A stretch of DNA of 64,000 nt, from assembly GCF_000381925.1 (NCBI RefSeq), contig NZ_KB907308.1, positions 124,001 through 188,000 on the forward strand, in the 5' to 3' direction. Of this stretch, positions 8,427-63,134 are shown one piece after another. Source of the stretch: Nocardia sp. BMG111209 (GTDB taxonomy: Bacteria > Actinomycetota > Actinomycetes > Mycobacteriales > Mycobacteriaceae). How positions within the stretch are numbered: position 1 is the first letter of the stretch; every line of letters starts with the position of its first letter. The translations under genes were made by a program, and so were the position numbers. The notes under the pieces are model-generated. The model had not been told where the DNA came from and made no database searches. It saw nothing but the letters and a program-made list of their open reading frames with translations.

Positions 8427-9296
8427 CTAGGCTCCGGCGCCGCTCAGGTAGTGGGCGGCGATCTCGTCGCTGGTGGTCAGCCACACCCCCGGATGGTTCG
8501 CGACGTAGTCCAGCGCCTCGTCCAGGTAGCGCCGCCGGAACGCCTGCCCGATGACGAACGGATGCAGGGCCAGCGCCATCACTCGGCCGCTGTCGGCGGA
8601 GTCGGCGTACAACTGATCCAGCTGATCGCGCACCATCCGGACGAAATCGGGACCGGTCAGCCCCTTGCTGACGAAGACGCCGATGTCGTTGAGCTCCACC
8701 GAATACGGCAGGCTCAGCACGCCGGGCACGTTCAGGTGGTAGGGCCGGTCGTCGTTGGTCCAGTCCAGGGTGTAGCTCAGGCCCAGTTCGGCCAGCAGTT
8801 CCGCGGTGTGGAAGGTCTCGGTCAGCCCGGGTCCCATCCAGCCGCGTGGGCGGGCGCCGGTGGCCCGCTCGATCGTATCGACGATGTCGCGCAGCAGGTT
8901 TCGCTCCTCGTCACGCGAATAACCGCTGTGCAGATGGCTGTTGCTGCTGCCGTGTGCCAGCCAGGTCCAGTCGCGCTGCTTCCCGGCCGTGATGATCTGC
9001 GGATATCGTTCGGCGACATCGGAATTCAGCAGTGCGCTGGCCCGGATGCCGTACTTGTCGAGCAGTTCGAGTACCCGCCAGAAGCCGACCCGGGGGCCGT
9101 AGTCGCGCCAGCCGTAGTTCAGCGGGTCCGGGGTCAGCGCCGTGGTGCCCTCGTAGGTCGCGGTGCCGGGCAGATCGGCGTAGAAGTGCTCGATGTTCAG
9201 GCCGAGGTAGAACGCGACGCGCTTGTCACCGGGCCAGTGGATCGGCTCCCGCTCGGTGATGGGACTGTAGTCGAAGAGGGTGAGGTCGGTGCTCAT
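8427..9296 (-). CDS. Polysaccharide deacetylase-like (CE4/PuuE type) hydrolase
   Basis: 289 aa. It has the NodB-type fold of metal-dependent deacetylases, with ALLNSDVAERYP, the WLAHGSSNSHLHSGYSRDEE segment, RPRGWMGPGLTETFHT and ALALHPFVIGQ. The family includes chitooligosaccharide deacetylases and the allantoinase PuuE; the absence of a signal peptide and the length of about 290 aa favour a cytoplasmic PuuE-like amidohydrolase rather than a cell-wall deacetylase. It is divergent from a MerR regulator with a clear operator in the 65-bp gap, so it is very probably the target gene. The normal first DD pair of classical CE4 enzymes is not obvious here (NIEHF instead). Confidence 0.82.
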   Translation of the reverse strand: MSTDLTLFDYSPITEREPIHWPGDKRVAFYLGLNIEHFYADLPGTATYEGTTALTPDPLNYGWRDYGPRVGFWRVLELLDKYGIRASALLNSDVAERYPQIITAGKQRDWTWLAHGSSNSHLHSGYSRDEERNLLRDIVDTIERATGARPRGWMGPGLTETFHTAELLAELGLSYTLDWTNDDRPYHLNVPGVLSLPYSVELNDIGVFVSKGLTGPDFVRMVRDQLDQLYADSADSGRVMALALHPFVIGQAFRRRYLDEALDYVANHPGVWLTTSDEIAAHYLSGAGA

Positions 9297-15337: not shown

Positions 15338-21273
<5,936 letters not shown>

Positions 21274-53814: not shown

Positions 53815-53876
53815 GGCCGGAACCCTATCCTTCTTCGAATGTCCGAACCTACCGGCCGACAACACTTCTCAACACG

Positions 53877-53894
53877 CGCTCATGCCGATGAGCG
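53877..53894 (+). repeat. Interspersed palindromic repeat, copy a
   Basis: CGCTCAT-GCCG-ATGAGCG, perfect 7-bp arms and 4-nt loop. A degenerate second copy (CGCTCACTTGCCGACACCG) begins at 53935. First of six sites that bound the gene segments between 53.9 and 60.1 kb. Confidence 0.7.
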
Positions 53895-53985
53895 AGTGAT
53901 CACGAGGCGCTGGCGTAACAGGTTCGGTCCGGAGCGCTCACTTGCCGACACCGGTTCCGGCGAACCGGCTAGGCTCAGGGCATGA

Positions 53986-54014
53986 GGGCAAGGGGGCAAG
54001 GGGGCAAGGGGGCA
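53986..54014 (+). repeat. 8-bp tandem repeat (GGGGGCAA) just inside an ATG
   Basis: About 3.5 copies of GGGGGCAA follow ATG 53982. The ATG is in frame 0 while the kinase downstream is in frame +1; adding one unit (or losing two) would join them. Such tracts are hot spots for slipped-strand changes. Confidence 0.6.
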
Positions 54015-54081
54015 TATTCATCGTTCGGTCTCGACCTGGCAACAACCTGTTCCCCTGCCTGCTTCACCCGAGCGTGCCGCA

Positions 54082-54696
54082 TTGATCGATCAAGTCGCCG
54101 AACGTGTTTTGGCACTGGGTCACCATCGGCTGACAGTGGGCATCGACGGATTGACCGCCTCGGGTAAGACCAGTTTCGGCCACGAACTCGCCGAACGAAT
54201 CGCCCGAGCCGGACGGCCCGTGCTGCGGGCAAGTCTGGACGATTTCAAGAATCCCTGGCGTGATCGGCACCGCTACGATCGCGAGTCCGGAGAAGGCTAC
54301 TATCGCAACGCCTTCGACTACCCGCGCGTTCGGGCACTGCTGTTCGAACCGTTCGGCCCCAACGGTTCCGGCGAGTGCGCGCTGTGCGCGATCGACCCTC
54401 TGACCCAGATCGATCATGCCTCGGTACTGACCGCGGCCGACGACGATGCGGTACTGATCGTGGACGGCGTCTTCGCGTTCCGCCCGGAGATCAACGAATA
54501 CTGGGACTTCCGCATCTGGCTGGAAGTGTCCCCCGAGATTTCGGTCAGCCGCGGCGCCGAGCGGGACAACGACGAGACGATCCACCGCGACCGGTACCTA
54601 CCGGCCGAACAGATCTACCTCGCCGAAGTGGAACCGTTGCCTTTCATGGACGTCATCATCGACAACTCGACCTTCGCCGATCCTCGGCTCCGGTAG
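54082..54696 (+). CDS. Uridine kinase-like P-loop kinase
   Basis: 204 aa from TTG 54082. Walker A GIDGLTASGKTS, then LRASLDDFKNPWRDRHRYDR with the substrate-binding Asp, GEGYYRNAFDYPRVRALLFE and AVLIVDGVFAFRPEI. Uridine kinase/phosphoribulokinase superfamily; nucleoside or small-metabolite phosphorylation. Plausible coding continues upstream of TTG (VPLPASPERAAL) with no ATG or GTG before a stop at 53983; the only good upstream ATG (53982) is out of frame behind a tandem repeat. Lies alone between repeat copies a and b. Confidence 0.8.
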   Translation: MIDQVAERVLALGHHRLTVGIDGLTASGKTSFGHELAERIARAGRPVLRASLDDFKNPWRDRHRYDRESGEGYYRNAFDYPRVRALLFEPFGPNGSGECALCAIDPLTQIDHASVLTAADDDAVLIVDGVFAFRPEINEYWDFRIWLEVSPEISVSRGAERDNDETIHRDRYLPAEQIYLAEVEPLPFMDVIIDNSTFADPRLR

Positions 54697-54757
54697 CGGA
54701 TGCTTCCACCGATCGGCCCACCTCCGCACTCGTCAACTCGGCTGCCGAACATCCTCG

Positions 54758-54812
54758 ATTGCCACTGCTCGCGCGAATCCCGTTGCGCAGCACGGTATCC
54801 GCTCATGCCGAG
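54758..54812 (+). repeat. Interspersed repeat, copy b (two units)
   Basis: First unit is degenerate (ATTGCC, then GAATCCCGTTGC), second has ATCCGCTCATGCCGA; unit spacing 46 bp. Shares GAATCCCGTTGC and TCCGCTCATGCCGA with copies c and g. Confidence 0.65.
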
Positions 54813-54864
54813 TCGCGTGCGTTCCGGATGTTGTCATCGGGCGACCGGTCGTGCATGATCGCGA

Positions 54865-54881
54865 ACGTGTCCATGACACGT
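54865..54881. promoter_or_regulatory. Palindrome upstream of the epoxide-hydrolase-like gene
   Basis: ACGTGTC-CAT-GACACGT, perfect 7-bp arms. A -10-like TATGCT lies at 54897-54902. Probable operator; its regulator is not in this segment. Confidence 0.4.
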
Positions 54882-55017
54882 GCGTCGTGGAGCCGCTATG
54901 CTCGGCGACGATCAGTTGACGCTCGACGTTTCCGAGGAGGCGGTACTGACATGCCGGTATCGCGTCGCATATATGCAGCGGACATGATGGCGATCTCGAC
55001 GGTGCCCCGGCGCGCTC

Positions 55018-55908
55018 ATGCAGCCCGGTGACGGCCGGCCGGCATTGCGCGCGCCGGTGCCGGATGGAGCGGAATCACGCTATGCGACAGTCAACGGCGT
55101 ACGGCTCCATTACGTGATCGCCGGCAGCGGCGATCCGGTTCTCCTGCTTCATGGTTGGCCCGAGACCTGGTATGCATGGCGCAAGGTCATTCCGGCACTG
55201 GCAGACCGGTTCACCGTGATTGCGCCCGATATGCGCGGCTACGGTGATTCCGAGCGCCCCGCCGTCGGCTACGACAAAGTAACGGTCGCAACCGACCTGC
55301 ACGAACTGATGCGAACGCTCGGATTCGGCCGCATTCACCTCGTCGTCCAGGACCTGGGCGGGCCTGTGGGCTTCGCTTATGCGGCAAGCTTTCCGGCGGA
55401 TGTGCGCGACTTCATCTTCATCGAGAGCGCTGTTCCGGGGTTCGGCCTCGAAGCGGCGATGGATGTAGCCCACGGCGGCAGCTGGCACATGGGTTTCAAC
55501 ATGGCCCAGGGGATCAACGAGGTGCTGGTCGCCGGACGCGAGCGGCCGTTCATCGAGTATTTCTACCGCCGCGGCACGCTGCACCCGGACGCGCTGACGC
55601 CGGCCGACATCGATGAATATGCGCGCAGCTATGCGGCAGGCGGCCTCGTGGCGAGCTTCAACTATTACCGGACACTGCTCGACGACGCGAAAGTCAATCG
55701 CGACAAGCTCGCCGTGAAAAGGCTTGCCCTCCCGGTACTCTCGCTCGCCGCCGAACAGGGGTTCGGTGACTTCTCCCACGCCTCGATCGCGCAGGTCGCC
55801 GACCTTGTCGAGCGGCAGACGATCGCCGGGGCGAAGCACTTCCTAGTGCAGGATCAGCCACAGGCGGCGACAGAAGCGATTCTGAGCTTTTTGACGCGCA
55901 CAGAGTAA
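55018..55908 (+). CDS. Alpha/beta hydrolase, epoxide hydrolase/haloalkane dehalogenase type
   Basis: 296 aa. HGWPETWYAW (oxyanion HGxP motif), nucleophile Asp in VVQDLGGPVG, cap domain with FNMAQGINEVLVAGRERPF, and C-terminal base His in GAKHFLVQDQP. An aspartate nucleophile means epoxide or C-halogen cleavage rather than an ordinary esterase. Third-position use is less extreme than in the core genes, and the protein reads like proteobacterial relatives, which suggests transfer. A 26-codon frame at 54951 (MPVSRRIYAADMMAISTVPR, good GAGGAGG upstream) ends inside this start and might be a remnant of a twin-arginine leader. Alone between repeats b and c. Confidence 0.87.
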   Translation: MQPGDGRPALRAPVPDGAESRYATVNGVRLHYVIAGSGDPVLLLHGWPETWYAWRKVIPALADRFTVIAPDMRGYGDSERPAVGYDKVTVATDLHELMRTLGFGRIHLVVQDLGGPVGFAYAASFPADVRDFIFIESAVPGFGLEAAMDVAHGGSWHMGFNMAQGINEVLVAGRERPFIEYFYRRGTLHPDALTPADIDEYARSYAAGGLVASFNYYRTLLDDAKVNRDKLAVKRLALPVLSLAAEQGFGDFSHASIAQVADLVERQTIAGAKHFLVQDQPQAATEAILSFLTRTE

Positions 55909-55968
55909 GACGCCGCAACCGGATCGGTTGCGGCGACGCATTCGTCACCTCGGCAATGATGCGCTGCA

Positions 55969-56034
55969 ATGCCGATGGTCGAGTGAATCCCGTTGCACTG
56001 TACGGACATCCGCTCATGCCGACTACCGTGCGTT
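55969..56034 (+). repeat. Interspersed repeat, copy c (two units, 47-bp period)
   Basis: ATGCCGATGGTCGAGTGAAT, then CCCGTTGCACTGTACGGA, then CATCCGCTCATGCCGACTAC. Nearly identical over about 55 bp to copy g at 60.0 kb. A partial copy (TCGAATCCCGTTGCAGT) follows at 56110-56126. Confidence 0.75.
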
Positions 56035-56471
56035 CGAAATCGGTCGATGAAGACCAGATCCTTGACCCGCAGCGGACCACGCCACGGACTGGTCGGTCGA
56101 TCGATCGACTCGAATCCCGTTGCAGTCCAGTATGTTTCACACTGCATATTGCGGGCTGCGATCCTCGCGCGGTGGCGTGTCCGGTTGTCGCGAATGCTCC
56201 GGCACGGGGGTGTGGATGTGTGTACGGTGGGCTCGACCGGCAGGGGTTGCTCGGGGCACACCTGATTGTCGAGGGTCTCGGTGGACAGGACCGATGCCCG
56301 ACGATGCGGCCGGCAAGCCGGTCACGGATCGCCGGCCAGCGGCCGGACGTGAGCAGGTGCGGTGCGCGGCAACGACTTCCCGACGAGTTCGGAGGGATTT
56401 CTCACCGACGGTGCGCCATTCACGCCCTGCCGGCATTTCGGTGCGCGGGCAACAACAGATCAGGAGCTACC
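56035..56471. other. Non-coding stretch between repeat c and the next gene
   Basis: About 440 bp with no supportable gene. It holds a partial repeat copy near 56110 and, presumably, the promoter of the membrane protein gene at 56472. Open frames across it show no recognisable protein. Confidence 0.4.
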
Positions 56472-57131
56472 GTGAGGTTCAATCCACCGCCGACCTGGCC
56501 GGCCCCGCCACCGGGCTGGGAACCCGATGCATCATGGTCACCCGACCCGAGCTGGCCGCCCCCACCACCGGGGTGGCAACTGTGGCTGGAGGATCCGACC
56601 GACGCAACAGTCGATGCCACGCAATCGGTCCGGCGACCGGCGACCGGCCAGATCGAAGCGGCGCTGCGAAACGGCTCGATCGCCCAATGGGGTGCGCTGG
56701 GCGCTGCCGTGTCGACATTGATCGCCAGCCTTCTGCCGTGGTGGACCGATTCCGCCACGTCGATGGGGTACACGGTGTCCGCATCGGCGAGCGCCTGGCA
56801 TCGATTCTGGTGGATCGGGCCACTGATAGCGGTCGCGGTCGGCATCGTCTACGCCTTGGTGATCGTCAAAGCTGTTGCTGCGCAACCGAAGACTCTGTTG
56901 CTGCTGGCAGGCGGCGGGTTCGCGTCATTTGTGCTGACGCTGATTTCGCTGATCGATACGATCAGCCGCCCCACCGGTATGGGCGTCCCGCAGCTCGCGT
57001 CTCCCGGCCCGTCGGCCGGGGTGTTCCTCGCACTCGTCACCACGGCGGTGCTGTGCTATTTCGGTGCCCTCGCCGCGCAGGACGCCGGCGCACGGCTGCC
57101 GATCGTGATTCCTGGTCCGCGACGGGAGTAG
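56472..57131 (+). CDS. Membrane protein with Pro/Trp-rich N terminus
   Basis: 219 aa. The N terminus is two PPGW repeats (PTWPAPPPGWEPD, SWPPPPPGWQLWLED), as seen in many actinobacterial membrane proteins, followed by four transmembrane helices (AVSTLIASLLPWW, FWWIGPLIAVAVGIVYALVI, LLLLAGGGFASFVLTLI, VFLALVTTAVLCYFGALAAQ). GTG 56472 has AGGAGC 7 nt upstream. No function known. Single gene between repeats c and e. Confidence 0.75.
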   Translation: MRFNPPPTWPAPPPGWEPDASWSPDPSWPPPPPGWQLWLEDPTDATVDATQSVRRPATGQIEAALRNGSIAQWGALGAAVSTLIASLLPWWTDSATSMGYTVSASASAWHRFWWIGPLIAVAVGIVYALVIVKAVAAQPKTLLLLAGGGFASFVLTLISLIDTISRPTGMGVPQLASPGPSAGVFLALVTTAVLCYFGALAAQDAGARLPIVIPGPRRE

Positions 57132-57236
57132 CAGCGCAACCGAGACCGACCATCACGCTCCAGCCCTCGCCCAAGGGGCGGTGACCCGGCTGCGGACGGC
57201 GTCCACGACAGCACGGTCCGGGCCGAACACCACCGA

Positions 57237-57300
57237 CGCTCATGCCGCATTCCGAACGAAATCTGTTGTGCCGCAGAACATCTGCTCAGGCCGATGAGCG
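57237..57300 (+). repeat. Interspersed repeat, copy e (two units, 46-bp period)
   Basis: GACGCTCATGCCGCATTCC, a degenerate middle (GAAATCTGTTGTGC), then ACATCTGCTCAGGCCGATGA and GCG. Same layout as copies c and g, more diverged. Confidence 0.65.
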
Positions 57301-57369
57301 TACTTCGGCCGTCGGTGTCCACCCGCGAATAGGGTTACCATCGGCGCCCGCTGTTGTTGCGTCGATCCG

Positions 57370-57606
57370 TCAGTCGACGGGCCCTCGGGCGGTCAGGACG
57401 GTCCTGAGCACGTGCTCGACCGCCGATTCGAACAACGCTCCCCGTAGCTCATTTCGCGCAGCCAGATTGCGGGTGGCGAGGTCGAGCACCTGATCGGGAG
57501 TTAGCCGGCGCACTACCAGGGCGGCAACGTCTTCCAGATCGAGGTCGCGGTTCGAGTCATCCAGTCTGATCAGGGCGAACGAGACGACGATCTCCTCGTC
57601 GGTCAT
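57370..57606 (-). CDS. Small hypothetical protein
   Basis: 78 aa: EEIVVSFALIRLDDSNRDLD, LEDVAALVVRRLTPDQVLDL, helical C terminus. ATG 57606 has GGAGG 6 nt upstream. No family recognised. Divergent from the tyrosine recombinase remnant. Confidence 0.6.
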   Translation of the reverse strand: MTDEEIVVSFALIRLDDSNRDLDLEDVAALVVRRLTPDQVLDLATRNLAARNELRGALFESAVEHVLRTVLTARGPVD

Positions 57607-57765
57607 ACTTCGCCTCCGCCGTTCGCTCACTCGGCCACACCGGGGTAACCAGGCCCGATACTACGGTATCGGGCAGTCCCACGACAGCTGACAATAGTCA
57701 GCACAAGTGAGCGGCAATGCCGCGATTGGTGTGTCCGGTTGGCGTGCTTGCGGGCATCGTGGTTC

Positions 57766-58667
57766 ATGGATACCTCGATCGACGTCGCTGTCGCCTTCGC
57801 TGGTGATGATCTCGTACTGCGGCTGGCCTGCGCGGCCAATCTCGCCCGCTACACCGGACAGTCCCGCATCCACTGCACCTCGGACCTGCGCATCTACATC
57901 TGCTGCCGCACCGAACGGCAACTCACACCATTGACCGTCGTACGGGCGGACGTGGAGCGATATGTGCGGTGGATGCAGGAGGTCCGCCGGTACAAGCCCG
58001 CCACCGTGGCCCGCCGCACCGCCGTGGTCACCGGCCTCTACCGCACCTGCGTCATCGACGGAGTCCTCGAACACTCACCGGCGGAATACATTCGCCGACC
58101 AAGAGTCGGTAACGAGTCACCCACACTCGGACTTTCACATCTACAGTTCGAAGCGCTGCTCACCGCCGCCCGAGACTCGCTCCACCCCAGCGACTTCGCG
58201 CTGGTCACCATGCTCGGACTACGCATCTTCGAAGCCTGCCAAACCGATATCGCCGACGTCGGTGAGGAACACGGCCACCGGGTACTACGCGTGGCCGGCA
58301 AAGGCGGCAAGGTCGTGCTGGTGCCTTTACCGCCGGCGGTCGGCCGCGCGATCGACCGGGCCTGCGGGGACCGGGTCCACGATCCGATCCTGCTCAACAC
58401 CCGCGGTCGGCGGATGGACCGGCACTGCGCCACCTGCTGCCTACGGCTGCTGGCACGGGTGGCGGTGGTGCGTTTGCCGTGGATGCACCCGCACATGCTG
58501 CGGCACACCTTCGTCACCACCATGCTCGATGCCGGCGACTGCGCGATGTTCAGATCGCGGCCCGCCACGCCGACCCACGCACGACGATGCGCTACGACCG
58601 CGCCCGCACGAACCTCGACCGCCACCCCAACTACATCCTCGTCGCCTACATGGCCTCCGGCACATGA
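57766..58667 (+). pseudogene. Tyrosine recombinase/integrase broken by a one-base deletion
   Basis: The reading from ATG 57766 gives a core-binding domain (RADVERYVRWMQEVRRYKPA) and a catalytic domain with Arg in MLGLRIFEACQ, the beta-hairpin Lys in VAGKGGKVV and HMLRHTFVTTML (HxxR). Near 58538 the frame changes: the last block DVQIAARHADPRTTMRYDRA, with the second His and the nucleophile Tyr, is in the next frame and ends at TGA 58667. Inserting one base after GGCGA (58533-58537) restores about 301 codons. As it stands the protein lacks its nucleophile. It lies between repeats e and f, in the middle of the segmented region. Confidence 0.85.
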
Positions 58668-58681
58668 CAAATCGAGAAACC

Positions 58682-58699
58682 TGCATGCCGATGAGCGGA
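58682..58699 (+). repeat. Interspersed palindromic repeat, copy f
   Basis: TGCATGCCGATGAGCGGA, 15 bp after the recombinase stop; single unit, left arm degenerate. Confidence 0.55.
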
Positions 58700-58730
58700 C
58701 GGGAACAATGACCGCCGACCAGCGATCCGC

Positions 58731-59261
58731 CTACTCTCGGTTGTCCAACCACCGCGGGAGATCTAGTTCCGGCCTGTCCGGACTGGCGAAATGGAACGGC
58801 ACACCCAGGGTTTCGGCGAGAGCGAGGCCGACGGAGGTGGCCTCTCGCGCCTCCGGATACGGAGGCACTTCGCCGTTGAAAATCCGGATGTCGCCGCCGT
58901 GCCGGATCTGTGCGAGATGATATTCGGCGCGAGGGCTCCGCATGACGGCGACCAGGCAGACTGCCCAGCCGAAAGTGTCGCCGTCCCAGACCGCTTCGAT
59001 CGCGTCGGGACATTCGGGCAGTTCCGCTACCTTGTCGGCCAGATCCTCGTGATTCAGAGGCGGAGTCGGTCTGATCCACGGCTGCCCGAGCTCGGTACAC
59101 CGCTCGGCGAGCAGATCCAGGCATTCGTTGATACCCGGTCGAGGATCACCGAGGATGTCCCGAATCTCCTTGACGGCCAACACCTTGCGGTCTTGGATGA
59201 TCAGCTCATCGACCCGAACTCGAAGATCAGCGGACAGCCGCTCCCACAACGGATCCTTCAC
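58731..59261 (-). CDS. Hypothetical protein
   Basis: 176 aa, soluble, acidic. MKDPLWERLSADLRVRVDEL, AVKEIRDILGDPRPGINECL, and a C-terminal FGWAVCLVAVMRSPRAEYHL with VPFHFASPDRPELD. I have seen related uncharacterised proteins in Streptomyces and Nocardia accessory regions. GTG start with GAGG upstream. Confidence 0.65.
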   Translation of the reverse strand: MKDPLWERLSADLRVRVDELIIQDRKVLAVKEIRDILGDPRPGINECLDLLAERCTELGQPWIRPTPPLNHEDLADKVAELPECPDAIEAVWDGDTFGWAVCLVAVMRSPRAEYHLAQIRHGGDIRIFNGEVPPYPEAREATSVGLALAETLGVPFHFASPDRPELDLPRWLDNRE

Positions 59262-59478
59262 ACACCAACCTCGCGTCCGCGCACGCTCACGCTGTCGAGT
59301 GTAGACATTCGGCCAGGCAACAGATCACGCAGAACACGCCCATCTGCCGACTACAGCGTCTATCCGCCACGGCCATGGGATCGGTTCCCCGACAGTGTTC
59401 AGTCTTGTCTCGACGGCAGGTCGAGCAAGCAGGTAGGAAAGGACCTCTGGACGACGCATCGGCGCTAGGCTCGACATC

Positions 59479-59922
59479 GTGGTGAGCGGCTCCTTCTTCG
59501 GCACGACGGCGCAGGTGCTGCCCGCATTGCTCATAGCCTTGGTCATCGAGTTCGGCTACCTCACGAACCTCGCGACGAGGCGTCAGTTGCGCCCGTTCGA
59601 ACGCTCCTTCACGGTCCGGCGCCTGCTAGGGCAGACACGACAGGCCGCGGCGCAGGCGTCGGCGGACGCGTCGAAGGAGTTCGAACGGTGGCAGCGCCGT
59701 TTCCTGAATCTCGGGACAGTCTTTCTTCTCGGCGAGACGCTGTCGCTGGTCGCGCTCATGTTCGATACCACGCCAGCATGGCTCTCCTGGGTCATGGCAG
59801 TTATCGTCTTCGGCTGCTTCTTCATTCTGAGCAGAGCGGTGGCATTGATCCCGCTGGTCAGATTCACCGCCTTCCACGTCGATCAGCTGACCTCCGGTGG
59901 ACCGGGCCGGCCGGATGACTAA
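59479..59922 (+). CDS. Membrane protein, three predicted helices
   Basis: 147 aa. Helix 1 VLPALLIALVIEFGYLTNLA, a charged helical loop (RQAAAQASADASKEFERWQR), helix 2 LGTVFLLGETLSLVALMF and helix 3 LSWVMAVIVFGCFFILSRAV. No function known. GTG at 59479 or 59482 without a strong ribosome binding site. Followed at 70 bp by repeat copy g. Confidence 0.65.
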   Translation: MVSGSFFGTTAQVLPALLIALVIEFGYLTNLATRRQLRPFERSFTVRRLLGQTRQAAAQASADASKEFERWQRRFLNLGTVFLLGETLSLVALMFDTTPAWLSWVMAVIVFGCFFILSRAVALIPLVRFTAFHVDQLTSGGPGRPDD

Positions 59923-59991
59923 TACTCCCGAGTCGTTCACGACTTGATTGGCAACAGCGAAGACGGGCCCGCAGTCGCGAGGTTCTCGAGT

Positions 59992-60066
59992 CATCCGCTC
60001 ATGCCGCTGGTCGAGTGAATCCCGTTGCACTGTACGGACATCCGCTGATGCCGATTACCGGATGTT
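59992..60066 (+). repeat. Interspersed repeat, copy g (two units, 47-bp period)
   Basis: CATCCGCTCATGCCGCTGGT (59992), GAATCCCGTTGCACTGTACG, then CATCCGCTGATGCCGATTAC (60039). Nearly identical to copy c over about 55 bp although 4 kb apart. Last copy; none is seen to the right. Confidence 0.75.
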
Positions 60067-62557: not shown

Positions 62558-63134
62558 GCACCATGCCCGTCGTCCCACCCAGGCGGTTCGTTCGCCCGGT
62601 GTGTGCCGCCGGACCCGACGCACTGGGGCAATCAGCGCAGCTGGGATCCTTCATCGTGGTCACCGTTGCCGACCACCCGGCCCCGCCTCGGTGAGTTCCG
62701 CCTGGATCGCGAACGTCGACCCGAGTGGGGTGGTCATCTTCGCCCCGATTGTCAGGCGACGGGCTTTGTCATCCCGAGCGGTCTCATGTCCACTCCCGAG
62801 ACGTCCCGGGCAGAGTGGATGGAGGCCGTGCGTGGCACGGTGTGGGGCGCCCGGCATTCGGTGCTGGCACACGAGAGTGCGCGATAATGCCGCCGAGCGC
62901 GCCGACCACCAGATGTACTAGGCCACAGGGCATCTGGAACTGCAGATATGCGGGCATCTCGCTCGGCGCGTAGTACGCAGTCCCTGGTCACACGAGAGCG
63001 ATTGCCGCTGACGGTACGACATAAGACACCGTGACCTCGATAGGCCCAGGCCAGGCCGGCTCAGCCATCGCAGGGTCGAGCTACTAATACTGCAACGTCA
63101 CTCGTGTGGATCGCTGCTGGTAGACCTGTCGGGT
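62558..63134. other. Region without a confidently recognised gene
   Basis: About 580 bp between the AraC gene and the transposase. A plus-strand frame ending at 62887 (SGLMSTPETSRAEWMEAVRG, TVWGARHSVLAHESAR) has some coding look but no family I know and could be a gene remnant. The left end of the insertion element probably lies near 63085, where ACTAATACTGCAACGTCACT begins; the exact inverted repeat cannot be fixed without the right end. Confidence 0.35.

Follow-up and report, generated by a model that had tools for sequence, protein, structure and literature searches.

What kind of element occupies 53.87-62.96 kb of the window, the 64,000-nucleotide stretch of Nocardia DNA analysed here, and is it an integron? 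Integrons are the classic example of single-gene capture in bacteria, and an earlier note on this DNA had proposed that the region is a cassette system of actinobacteria whose sites are of a type of their own. We are confident that this region represents one array of a Nocardia gene-cassette system, integron-like but not an integron, with directly repeated cores and a Xer-like recombinase.

Core sites and cassettes

The actual repeat unit is a 30-bp dif-like core, in which inverted arms flank a 6-bp centre, TGCCG[A/C]. A logo of 348 distinct sites set its limits at -13 to +16, with the dyad centre in the middle of TGCCG[A/C], a dif-like 12-6-12 layout. These sites remained after removal of duplicates from 48 chosen stretches, some overlapping, which held 369 sites where reversed sequence gave 3; of the 369, 351 lay on the majority strand of their own stretch. 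The site density of the 48 is not a genome average, and some of the stretches omitted from them (L072, L079, L080, L083, L084, L086, L089-L091, L142-L144, L146, L150, L154, L155, L160), for example L086, contain sites. The 20 stretches fetched after the matrix was built (L207-L226) gave 97 sites against one in reversed sequence, 92 of the 97 on the majority strand.

In the array the PWM located 12 cores that passed the threshold and two of lower score, all on the same strand (Table 1); no core in the first 53 kb of the window passed it, and past the window the cores continue up to C2:192543. The six repeat places for which a common orientation had been noted are all real, and the two copies noted as near-identical agree at 95% over 60 bp. 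The 18-mer given as the core of the six places matches exactly at 53877 only, and at up to three mismatches has seven matches in the window, all on the + strand, against 0.31 expected in shuffles. The four double units with 46-47 bp spacing were also recovered, the weak core at 57244 included, and each is two cores enclosing a gene-less microcassette. The block GAATCCCGTTGC, described as joining the two halves, is real but is the interior of this gene-less cassette, not a piece of one long site. A single site of ~80 bp is ruled out, as homology in other genomes ends at either of two cores; a site model from nine long sites of the window genome (R1) proved over-specific for relatives, and the short-core model (R2) was used instead.

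Table 1 Cores and cassettes of the array (window coordinates)
Feature	Position	Strand	Details
Core site 1, array left end	53871..53900	+	30.2 bits; homology to G122 and G117 kinase cassettes begins
Kinase cassette, P-loop kinase-like protein, CDS 54082-54696	53884..54761	+	PF00485; core-to-core 93% G122, 89% G117
Core site 2	54748..54777	+	16.6 bits; G122/G117 homology ends
Gene-less microcassette, 46 bp	54761..54807	+	
Core site 3	54794..54823	+	26.6 bits; G132/G100 homology begins
Hydrolase cassette, alpha/beta hydrolase, CDS 55018-55908	54807..55971	+	PF00561; 91% G132, 88% G100
Core site 4	55958..55987	+	20.0 bits
Gene-less microcassette, 47 bp	55971..56018	+	
Core site 5	56005..56034	+	30.4 bits
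Cassette, membrane-protein-like ORF 56472-57131	56018..57244	+	no Pfam match
Core site 6, weak	57231..57260	+	9.4 bits
Gene-less microcassette, 46 bp	57244..57290	+	core spacing
Core site 7	57277..57306	+	22.2 bits; G132 homology begins at query 3691 = window 57290
Cassette, small ORF 57370-57630 (- strand)	57290..57719	+	90% G132, 86% G114
Core site 8, upstream of recombinase	57706..57735	+	15.6 bits
Recombinase cassette, tyrosine recombinase pseudogene ~57769-58667	57719..58687	+	
Core site 9, weak	58674..58703	+	9.2 bits; TGCCG begins 18 bp past recombinase stop
Cassette, ORF 58731-59261 (- strand)	58687..59346	+	no Pfam match
Core site 10	59333..59362	+	16.9 bits
Cassette, membrane-protein-like ORF 59479-59922	59346..60003	+	no Pfam match
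Core site 11	59990..60019	+	22.8 bits
Gene-less microcassette, 47 bp	60003..60050	+	
Core site 12	60037..60066	+	28.4 bits
Core site 13	62876..62905	+	18.0 bits
Possible core site 14	62929..62958	+	14.5 bits

Cassettes are typically 0.3-2.5 kb long, gene-less ones 34-94 bp, and the microcassettes fall in fixed length classes whose membership is approximate, the clustering threshold (0.68) lying just below the shuffle maximum (0.71). Relative to the array, 85 of 162 genes point in the same direction and 77 in the opposite one, on a crude choice of open-reading frame by GC3-GC2. Ten strands of five sites gave no consistent support for an attC-like fold (z -2.43 to +1.45, one of ten below -2), and an Rfam scan of six array stretches returned a single tRNA as its sole match, from a collection that may hold no attC family. 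In form the site is dif-like, short, symmetric and double-stranded, and not an attC-like palindrome; it is of its own type, as had been proposed.

Cassettes in other genomes

Kinase and hydrolase cassettes recur in other Nocardia with 88-93% identity and unrelated flanks. Sixteen boundaries were compared, hand-picked rather than random; neither the right ends of the hydrolase cassette nor the left end of the G117 kinase cassette were among them. At 14 of the sixteen, identity is 78-98% within the cassette and drops to 50-59% beyond it (by chance 54 on average, 61 at most), and at two (G053/G402) the outside stays 82-85% similar. One of the 14, the L082 boundary near 17935, has no recognisable TGCCG core on the G012 side. 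At the G117 kinase left end, homology was seen in a separate alignment to start at the core, and hydrolase cassette homology reaches window position 55977 in G132 and 55952 in G100. Presence and absence of segments with repeat-bounded junctions, named in the earlier note as what would support its reading, was found between G022 and G012, whose arrays occur with and without exactly the recombinase cassette, inserted precisely at a core.

Of 335 HSP ends, 50 fell within 10 bp of a core against 1.5% expected, and 8 of 87 with the recombinase excluded; the strict core-to-core criterion (at most 40 bp at all four ends) held for 5 of 97 homologous cassette pairs. Recombinase homology often begins 24-114 bp inside the upstream core, many intervals contain a missed core, and some cassette genes (L198, L204-L206), like the cassette at 57290..57719, also occur without a nearby core. 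Comparison of sequences shows the common orientation of the cores, the identity of cassettes across species up to the core and their unrelated neighbours. The segments are mobile, and the recurrence of the same cassettes elsewhere in Nocardia, in other surroundings and homologous as far as the core, bears out the proposal of an actinobacterial cassette system.

The recombinase

A tyrosine recombinase had been reported within the array, and one is present (PF00589), but as a broken copy, its frame interrupted before the C-terminal catalytic block. Three residues close to its first catalytic Arg, present in most relatives, are missing, as they are in at least one relative, P0017. No second copy was found in the window genome at E 1e-40, and with the resident copy broken the array in this genome is probably either a relic or one acted on in trans only. 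The catalytic R-K-H-R-H-Y set is complete in P0002 (R156, K185, H246, R249, H272, Y281); among 38 family members R156, H246 and Y281 are invariant, and K185, R249 and H272 are each at least 90% conserved.

The enzyme is Xer-like, not IntI. The integron integrase model TIGR02249 scored 50.8 bits against a cut-off of 265, the IntI4 match spans 65 residues only, and the Lys and the His-x-x-Arg motif are spaced 61 residues apart, which presumably leaves no space for the extra IntI domain. XerD 1a0p (E 2.5e-16) and XerA 5hxy (2e-13) are among its closest solved relatives, but it stays under the cut-offs of the XerD and XerC family models (115.7 against 329.6 and 114.4 against 335.15 bits), and by context it is no chromosome-dimer recombinase. 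It matches 110 phage records, 108 of them with query coverage of 80% or more; the 20 matches listed share 46.5-47.9% identity with it, and one unlisted record falls in the 60-80% band. These relatives are integrases of Arthrobacter and Gordonia phages. A plasmid search gave no match at 1e-50.

The recombinase gene sits between two cores, as other cassettes do. Counting only the 25 rows (24 distinct), from 29 loci, in which a C-terminus was readable by pattern, TGCCG lies 16-21 bp past the stop in 18 of 19 Nocardia copies (18 bp in 13) and 7-12 bp past it in four of five copies from other families. Across 24 contexts the 500 bp downstream of the gene showed no similarity to one another, nor did the 22 upstream stretches that were long enough. 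The recombinase appears to be itself a cassette.

Distribution and the role of host recombinases

Among 118 Nocardia genomes, 47 have at least ten cores and 27 at least 20, which are minimum values (57 or 27 scored candidates, strict filters); in Nocardia other than the window genome the cores form several arrays across the genome. The median, again of minimum counts, is 19.5 sites with the recombinase (n=18) vs. 6.0 without (n=100; one-sided p=3e-4). By hand-compiled lists, 13 of the 27 genomes with at least 20 sites are absent from the recombinase-positive list, and direct search of these 13 and G011 found no intact recombinase, only Xer-like proteins of 32-40% identity (present in 14/14 genomes searched) and fragments (45 residues in G152, 59 in G011). 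Either the recombinase is repeatedly gained and lost, therefore, or a different enzyme, host XerC/XerD, is able to act on the cores. A repeat spread genome-wide regardless of the recombinase, which the earlier note had set against its own reading, is in part what these several arrays per genome and recombinase-free, site-rich genomes represent.

We consider it unlikely that host XerC/XerD recombine the cores, as they do in Acinetobacter pdif modules, with the resident recombinase a mere passenger. The dif-like core and the 13 site-rich genomes that encode Xer-like proteins without an intact recombinase fit such a scheme, but a core follows nearly all readable recombinase copies in several families, sites are more numerous where the recombinase is present, and the cores are directly oriented and centred on TGCCG, unlike the centre of actinobacterial dif, which we take to be A+T-rich. 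Sites of the pdif type have two arms and a 6-bp centre, and alternate in orientation. The Nocardia cores share the arms and centre, a likeness of layout only, and likewise separate gene modules, but they do not alternate, differ in sequence and host group, and repeatedly flank a dedicated recombinase gene where pdif modules use host XerCD. In Acinetobacter, gene modules between dif-like sites make up multi-module islands on chromosome and plasmid, as described in PMC12907356.

Comparison with integrons and transposons

The Nocardia system works like an integron, with a tyrosine recombinase, tandem and mostly one-gene cassettes, some of them empty, and cassettes gained, lost and re-ordered at exact site junctions. 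Integrons also include clusters without an integrase (CALINs), according to PMC8618304, as does the Nocardia system. It differs from integrons, however, in integrase type, attC fold, platform and gene orientation: the recombinase is not IntI and appears to travel as a cassette, the core is a double-stranded symmetric site in direct repeats, no fixed attI-type platform was seen (judged by the recombinase neighbours), genes face both ways and microcassettes have fixed lengths. A true integron of unusual type, with IntI and attC, would explain the tandem and gene-poor cassettes, the tyrosine recombinase and the precise gain and loss, but is made very improbable by the TIGR02249 score and Lys-His spacing, the lack of a consistent attC-like fold in the ten strands, the variable recombinase neighbours and the mixed gene orientation.

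Slightly less credible still are short transposons with ~12-bp terminal inverted repeats and a TGCCG target duplication, placed end to end by a DDE transposase: a lone cassette does show inverted ends with TGCCG left on either side, but wherever a comparison was made the supposed target was a complete, two-armed core, the cassettes were not seen to share a transposase, and the gene repeatedly flanked by cores is a tyrosine recombinase. REP-like repeats dispersed between genes, as terminators or regulatory elements, would suit intergenic, partly palindromic sites and several arrays per genome, but can be practically dismissed, the cores of the window being clustered in one orientation and homology observed to break at the core.

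Proposed mechanism and implications

In the cassette system that we favour, a cassette is the DNA bounded by directly repeated cores, and the Xer-like recombinase, ~304 aa long and travelling as a cassette, most likely binds the core arms, with strand exchange taking place in the 6-bp centre. Recombination would excise cassettes as circles and insert them into other cores, with gain, loss and re-ordering at core junctions as the outcome; we infer the circular intermediates, the Xer-like recombinase as the exchange enzyme and the exchange inside TGCCG[A/C]. Beyond this locus, it is reasonably probable that such arrays form an independent class of gene capture, widespread in Nocardia and several other actinobacterial families, in which a Xer-like recombinase and double-stranded dif-like cores stand in place of IntI/attI/attC, the recombinase is a self-mobile cassette and fixed-length gene-less microcassettes multiply in arrays. 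We found no description of such a system in the PMC literature, a scope outside which lie most subscription papers and all bioRxiv preprints.

A second capture device, from another recombinase branch and with double-stranded sites, would, if true, mean that cassette capture has more than one origin, and could account for some of the variable gene content seen in Nocardia. Integrons are thought to derive from a double-stranded state, of which the Nocardia system would then be a living counterpart. Integron integrases retain ancestral double-strand activity, as stated in PMC4792948, and the Nocardia system looks as if it had kept to that activity throughout, which makes a standing question testable. 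The arrays look like a gene-shuffling system separate from classical integrons, and the sharp core makes their annotation straightforward. Two patterns had 0 matches in viral contigs; in the genome_contigs collection the pair pattern returned 29 stretches, 10 from Nocardia and 19 scattered over Proteobacteria and others, the latter probably chance occurrences in coding DNA.

Core sites and arrays

The 18-mer repeat described in the earlier note proved real: it occurs seven times in the window with up to three mismatches, always on the + strand, against 0.31 matches expected. A 31-bp weight matrix run over the whole window gave 12 matches that score above 13 bits, every one on the + strand; those on the minus strand were only weaker mirror images of five + matches, and the reversed sequence gave a single match. 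The array extends past the window (C2:124001-188000), and contig C1 of the same genome (9.14 Mb in five contigs) carries three more copies of the repeat. C1 also has two 46–47-bp microcassettes (short, gene-less units between two cores) on one strand, 10 kb apart.

Locations of the array, its cassettes and related loci (window coordinates unless another sequence is named)
Feature	Position	Remark
Core matches >13 bits	53.87-62.96 kb	12 matches
Kinase cassette	53884-54761	
Hydrolase cassette	54807-55971	
Small-ORF cassette	57290-57719	gene at 57370-57630
Recombinase cassette	57719-58687	broken copy
Array reaches	C2:192.5 kb	past window
Further repeat copies	C1:2036355, 2046450, 2529811	
Two 46-47-bp microcassettes	C1:2036355-2046531	
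Phage integrase match	OP434442.1 24629-25480	
38-bp tandem repeat	L074 (G074:C1:904901-924800) 8436-9100	

The sequence logo built from 348 distinct sites (Nocardia arrays plus genome G074, from another family) spans −13 to +16 around TGCCG with the consensus AAC[G/A][C/T]-C-C-G... TGCCG[A/C] ...CG-x-GCGTT, conservation at its best positions being somewhat inflated as the sites were matrix-selected. The outer arms are inverted repeats whose dyad centre lies at the middle of TGCCG[A/C], the core thus sharing with dif the arm, 6-bp exchange region and arm layout of a simple tyrosine-recombinase core. Single-strand folding z-scores of five full sites ranged from −2.43 to +1.45 over both strands, falling below −2 in one of ten.

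Signs of cassette exchange at the core

The cassette region was searched against 148 Nocardia genomes, in which individual segments recur without their window neighbours. G122 and G117 carry the kinase segment (93% and 89% identity), G132 and G100 that of the hydrolase (91% and 88%), and the small-ORF segment is present in G132 (90%), G114 (86%) and others, the order of the last two segments being swapped in G132. Followed base by base, the match of the kinase segment with G122 runs from the TGCCG of the left core to the TGCC of the right core and the flanks are unrelated. At 16 boundaries hand-picked from the comparisons, which belong to nine cassettes or blocks, the 120 bp inside were 78–98% identical, whilst at 14 of them the 120 bp outside shared only 50–59% (random pairs 54%, maximum 61%). 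The exceptions, two boundaries of one block common to G053 and G402, were still 82–85% similar outside; at one of the 14 sharp boundaries (stretch L082 near 17935) the Nocardia sp. CDC159 side has no recognisable TGCCG. In that genome two cassettes meet at a single core, whilst in Nocardia transvalensis BJ06-0148 a complete 916-bp recombinase cassette sits between the same two cassettes (93–96% identical), inserted at this core.

Alignment ends lay within 10 bp of a core in 50 of 335 cases, compared with 1.5% at random, and in 8 of 87 when the recombinase cassette was left out. Under a strict core-to-core rule 5 of 97 homologous cassette pairs remained: most pairs were of the recombinase, whose homology often begins only some tens of bases past the upstream core, and others had a missed core. 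This count and the boundary lacking a core slightly lower our confidence in the cassette-array reading. Two arrays 0.6 Mb apart in G053 (L145 and L147, C1 4.08 and 4.67 Mb) have common segments 98.8–99.7% identical, one beginning at a core; these are apparently the product of recent movement or copying within one genome.

Cargo and microcassettes

The 162 cassettes with a plausible open-reading frame have a median length of 995 bp, and their genes run with the array in 85 and against it in 77. Cargo judged by eye includes kinases, hydrolases, acetyltransferase-like and glyoxalase-like proteins, methyltransferases, lipoproteins and insertion-sequence transposases; a Pfam scan covered the window proteins, one array reading frame just outside the window (L019) and P0002, an intact relative of the recombinase. 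The small-ORF gene is also found in 3.3-kb loci of other Nocardia (L198, L204, L205 and L206) with no core above threshold, so ordinary chromosomal genes may be a source of cassettes, or cassettes may lose their cores.

The double units 46–47 bp apart noticed earlier are indeed pairs of cores around 46–47 bp of gene-less DNA. The commonest microcassette lengths are 34, 38, 46–47, 57–58, 67–68 and 90–91 bp; interior-sequence classes of ~55–60, 67–71 and 87–94 bp recur in nine, seven and eight genomes respectively, and the 46–47-bp class occurs in the window genome and G132 only. The kinase cassette is followed by a 46-bp unit in the window, a 90-bp unit in G117 and other DNA in G122, microcassettes therefore moving separately from genes. 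Their role, we would guess, is parasitic or that of a spacer.

A recombinase that behaves as a cassette

The Xer-like recombinase belongs to a large family (of 7996 candidates scored, 6715 pass E 0.001). The 120 matches listed mostly show 64–80% identity to the window piece, and every one that bears an organism name is actinobacterial. In the window the gene is broken, and no second copy was found in the genome at E 1e-40; P0002 (304 aa) retains six of six catalytic residues. The recombinase falls short of the XerC, XerD and integron-integrase cut-offs, and XerD is the best match among solved structures. Arthrobacter and Gordonia phage integrases match it at ~47% identity, and plasmid records gave no match at 1e-50.

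Of the 19 Nocardia copies whose end could be read, 18 have TGCCG beginning 16–21 bp past the stop (13 of them at exactly 18 bp); the one exception, G038, has AGCCG in its place. In other families TGCCG lies 7–12 bp past the stop in four of five copies; three copies only 45–46% identical (L170, L172 and L173) have no TGCCG core there. No similarity was found between the downstream 500 bp of 24 contexts, nor upstream between the 22 long enough for comparison, and the behaviour of the gene is therefore that of a cassette rather than of a fixed platform.

At E 1e-40 the recombinase is present in 18 of 118 Nocardia, and the median site number is 19.5 in genomes that carry it, versus 6.0 in those without (one-sided p=3e-4). 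Thirteen genomes have at least 20 sites but no recombinase match (G017, G019, G047, G054, G100, G106, G112, G113, G114, G120, G134, G152 and G156). A direct search of these and G011 found no intact recombinase, only Xer-like proteins (32–40%), besides a short fragment in G152 and another in G011. Such genomes resemble the integrase-less clusters of integron cassettes.

Classification and spread

The window very probably holds one array of an integron-like, non-integron gene-cassette system, with the recombinase as its putative enzyme. The Nocardia arrays and integrons are alike in function; membership of the integrons was rejected, as integrase type, site folding, platform and gene orientation all depart from theirs. 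The sites of pdif modules differ from the Nocardia cores in orientation. The arrays appear to belong with cassette arrays, possibly as a class of their own, and are less likely a pdif module system, which would rely on the host XerC/XerD pair. The PMC library literature, whose coverage leaves out most closed-access papers, gave no description of this system.

In 48 chosen stretches of 10–20 kb we found 369 sites above 13 bits, compared with three in reversed sequence, and 351 lay on the majority strand of their own stretch. Twenty stretches fetched once the matrix existed (L207–L226) gave 97 sites versus one in the control, 92 on the majority strand, and adjoining 20-kb blocks (L142–L144, L146, L154 and L155) never had more than one site position scoring ≥11 bits. 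Distances between successive cores, a few counted twice because some stretches overlap, were bimodal (20–100 bp in 92 of 307, 300–2500 bp in 171). The core model, its counts limited by the 57 candidates scored in each genome, finds at least ten sites in 47 of 118 Nocardia genomes and two or fewer in 28. At class level, 61 of 246 genomes had a core match at E ≤0.02 (chance would give ~5, assuming that the rough E-values are right), repeatedly in several families (f41, f43, f46 and f54), and 14 of 246, including the window genome, had the recombinase (E 1e-60). In G074, which belongs to another actinobacterial family, a 38-bp unit is repeated head to tail about ten times, mostly with a TGCCG core above threshold, as a tandem microcassette expansion.
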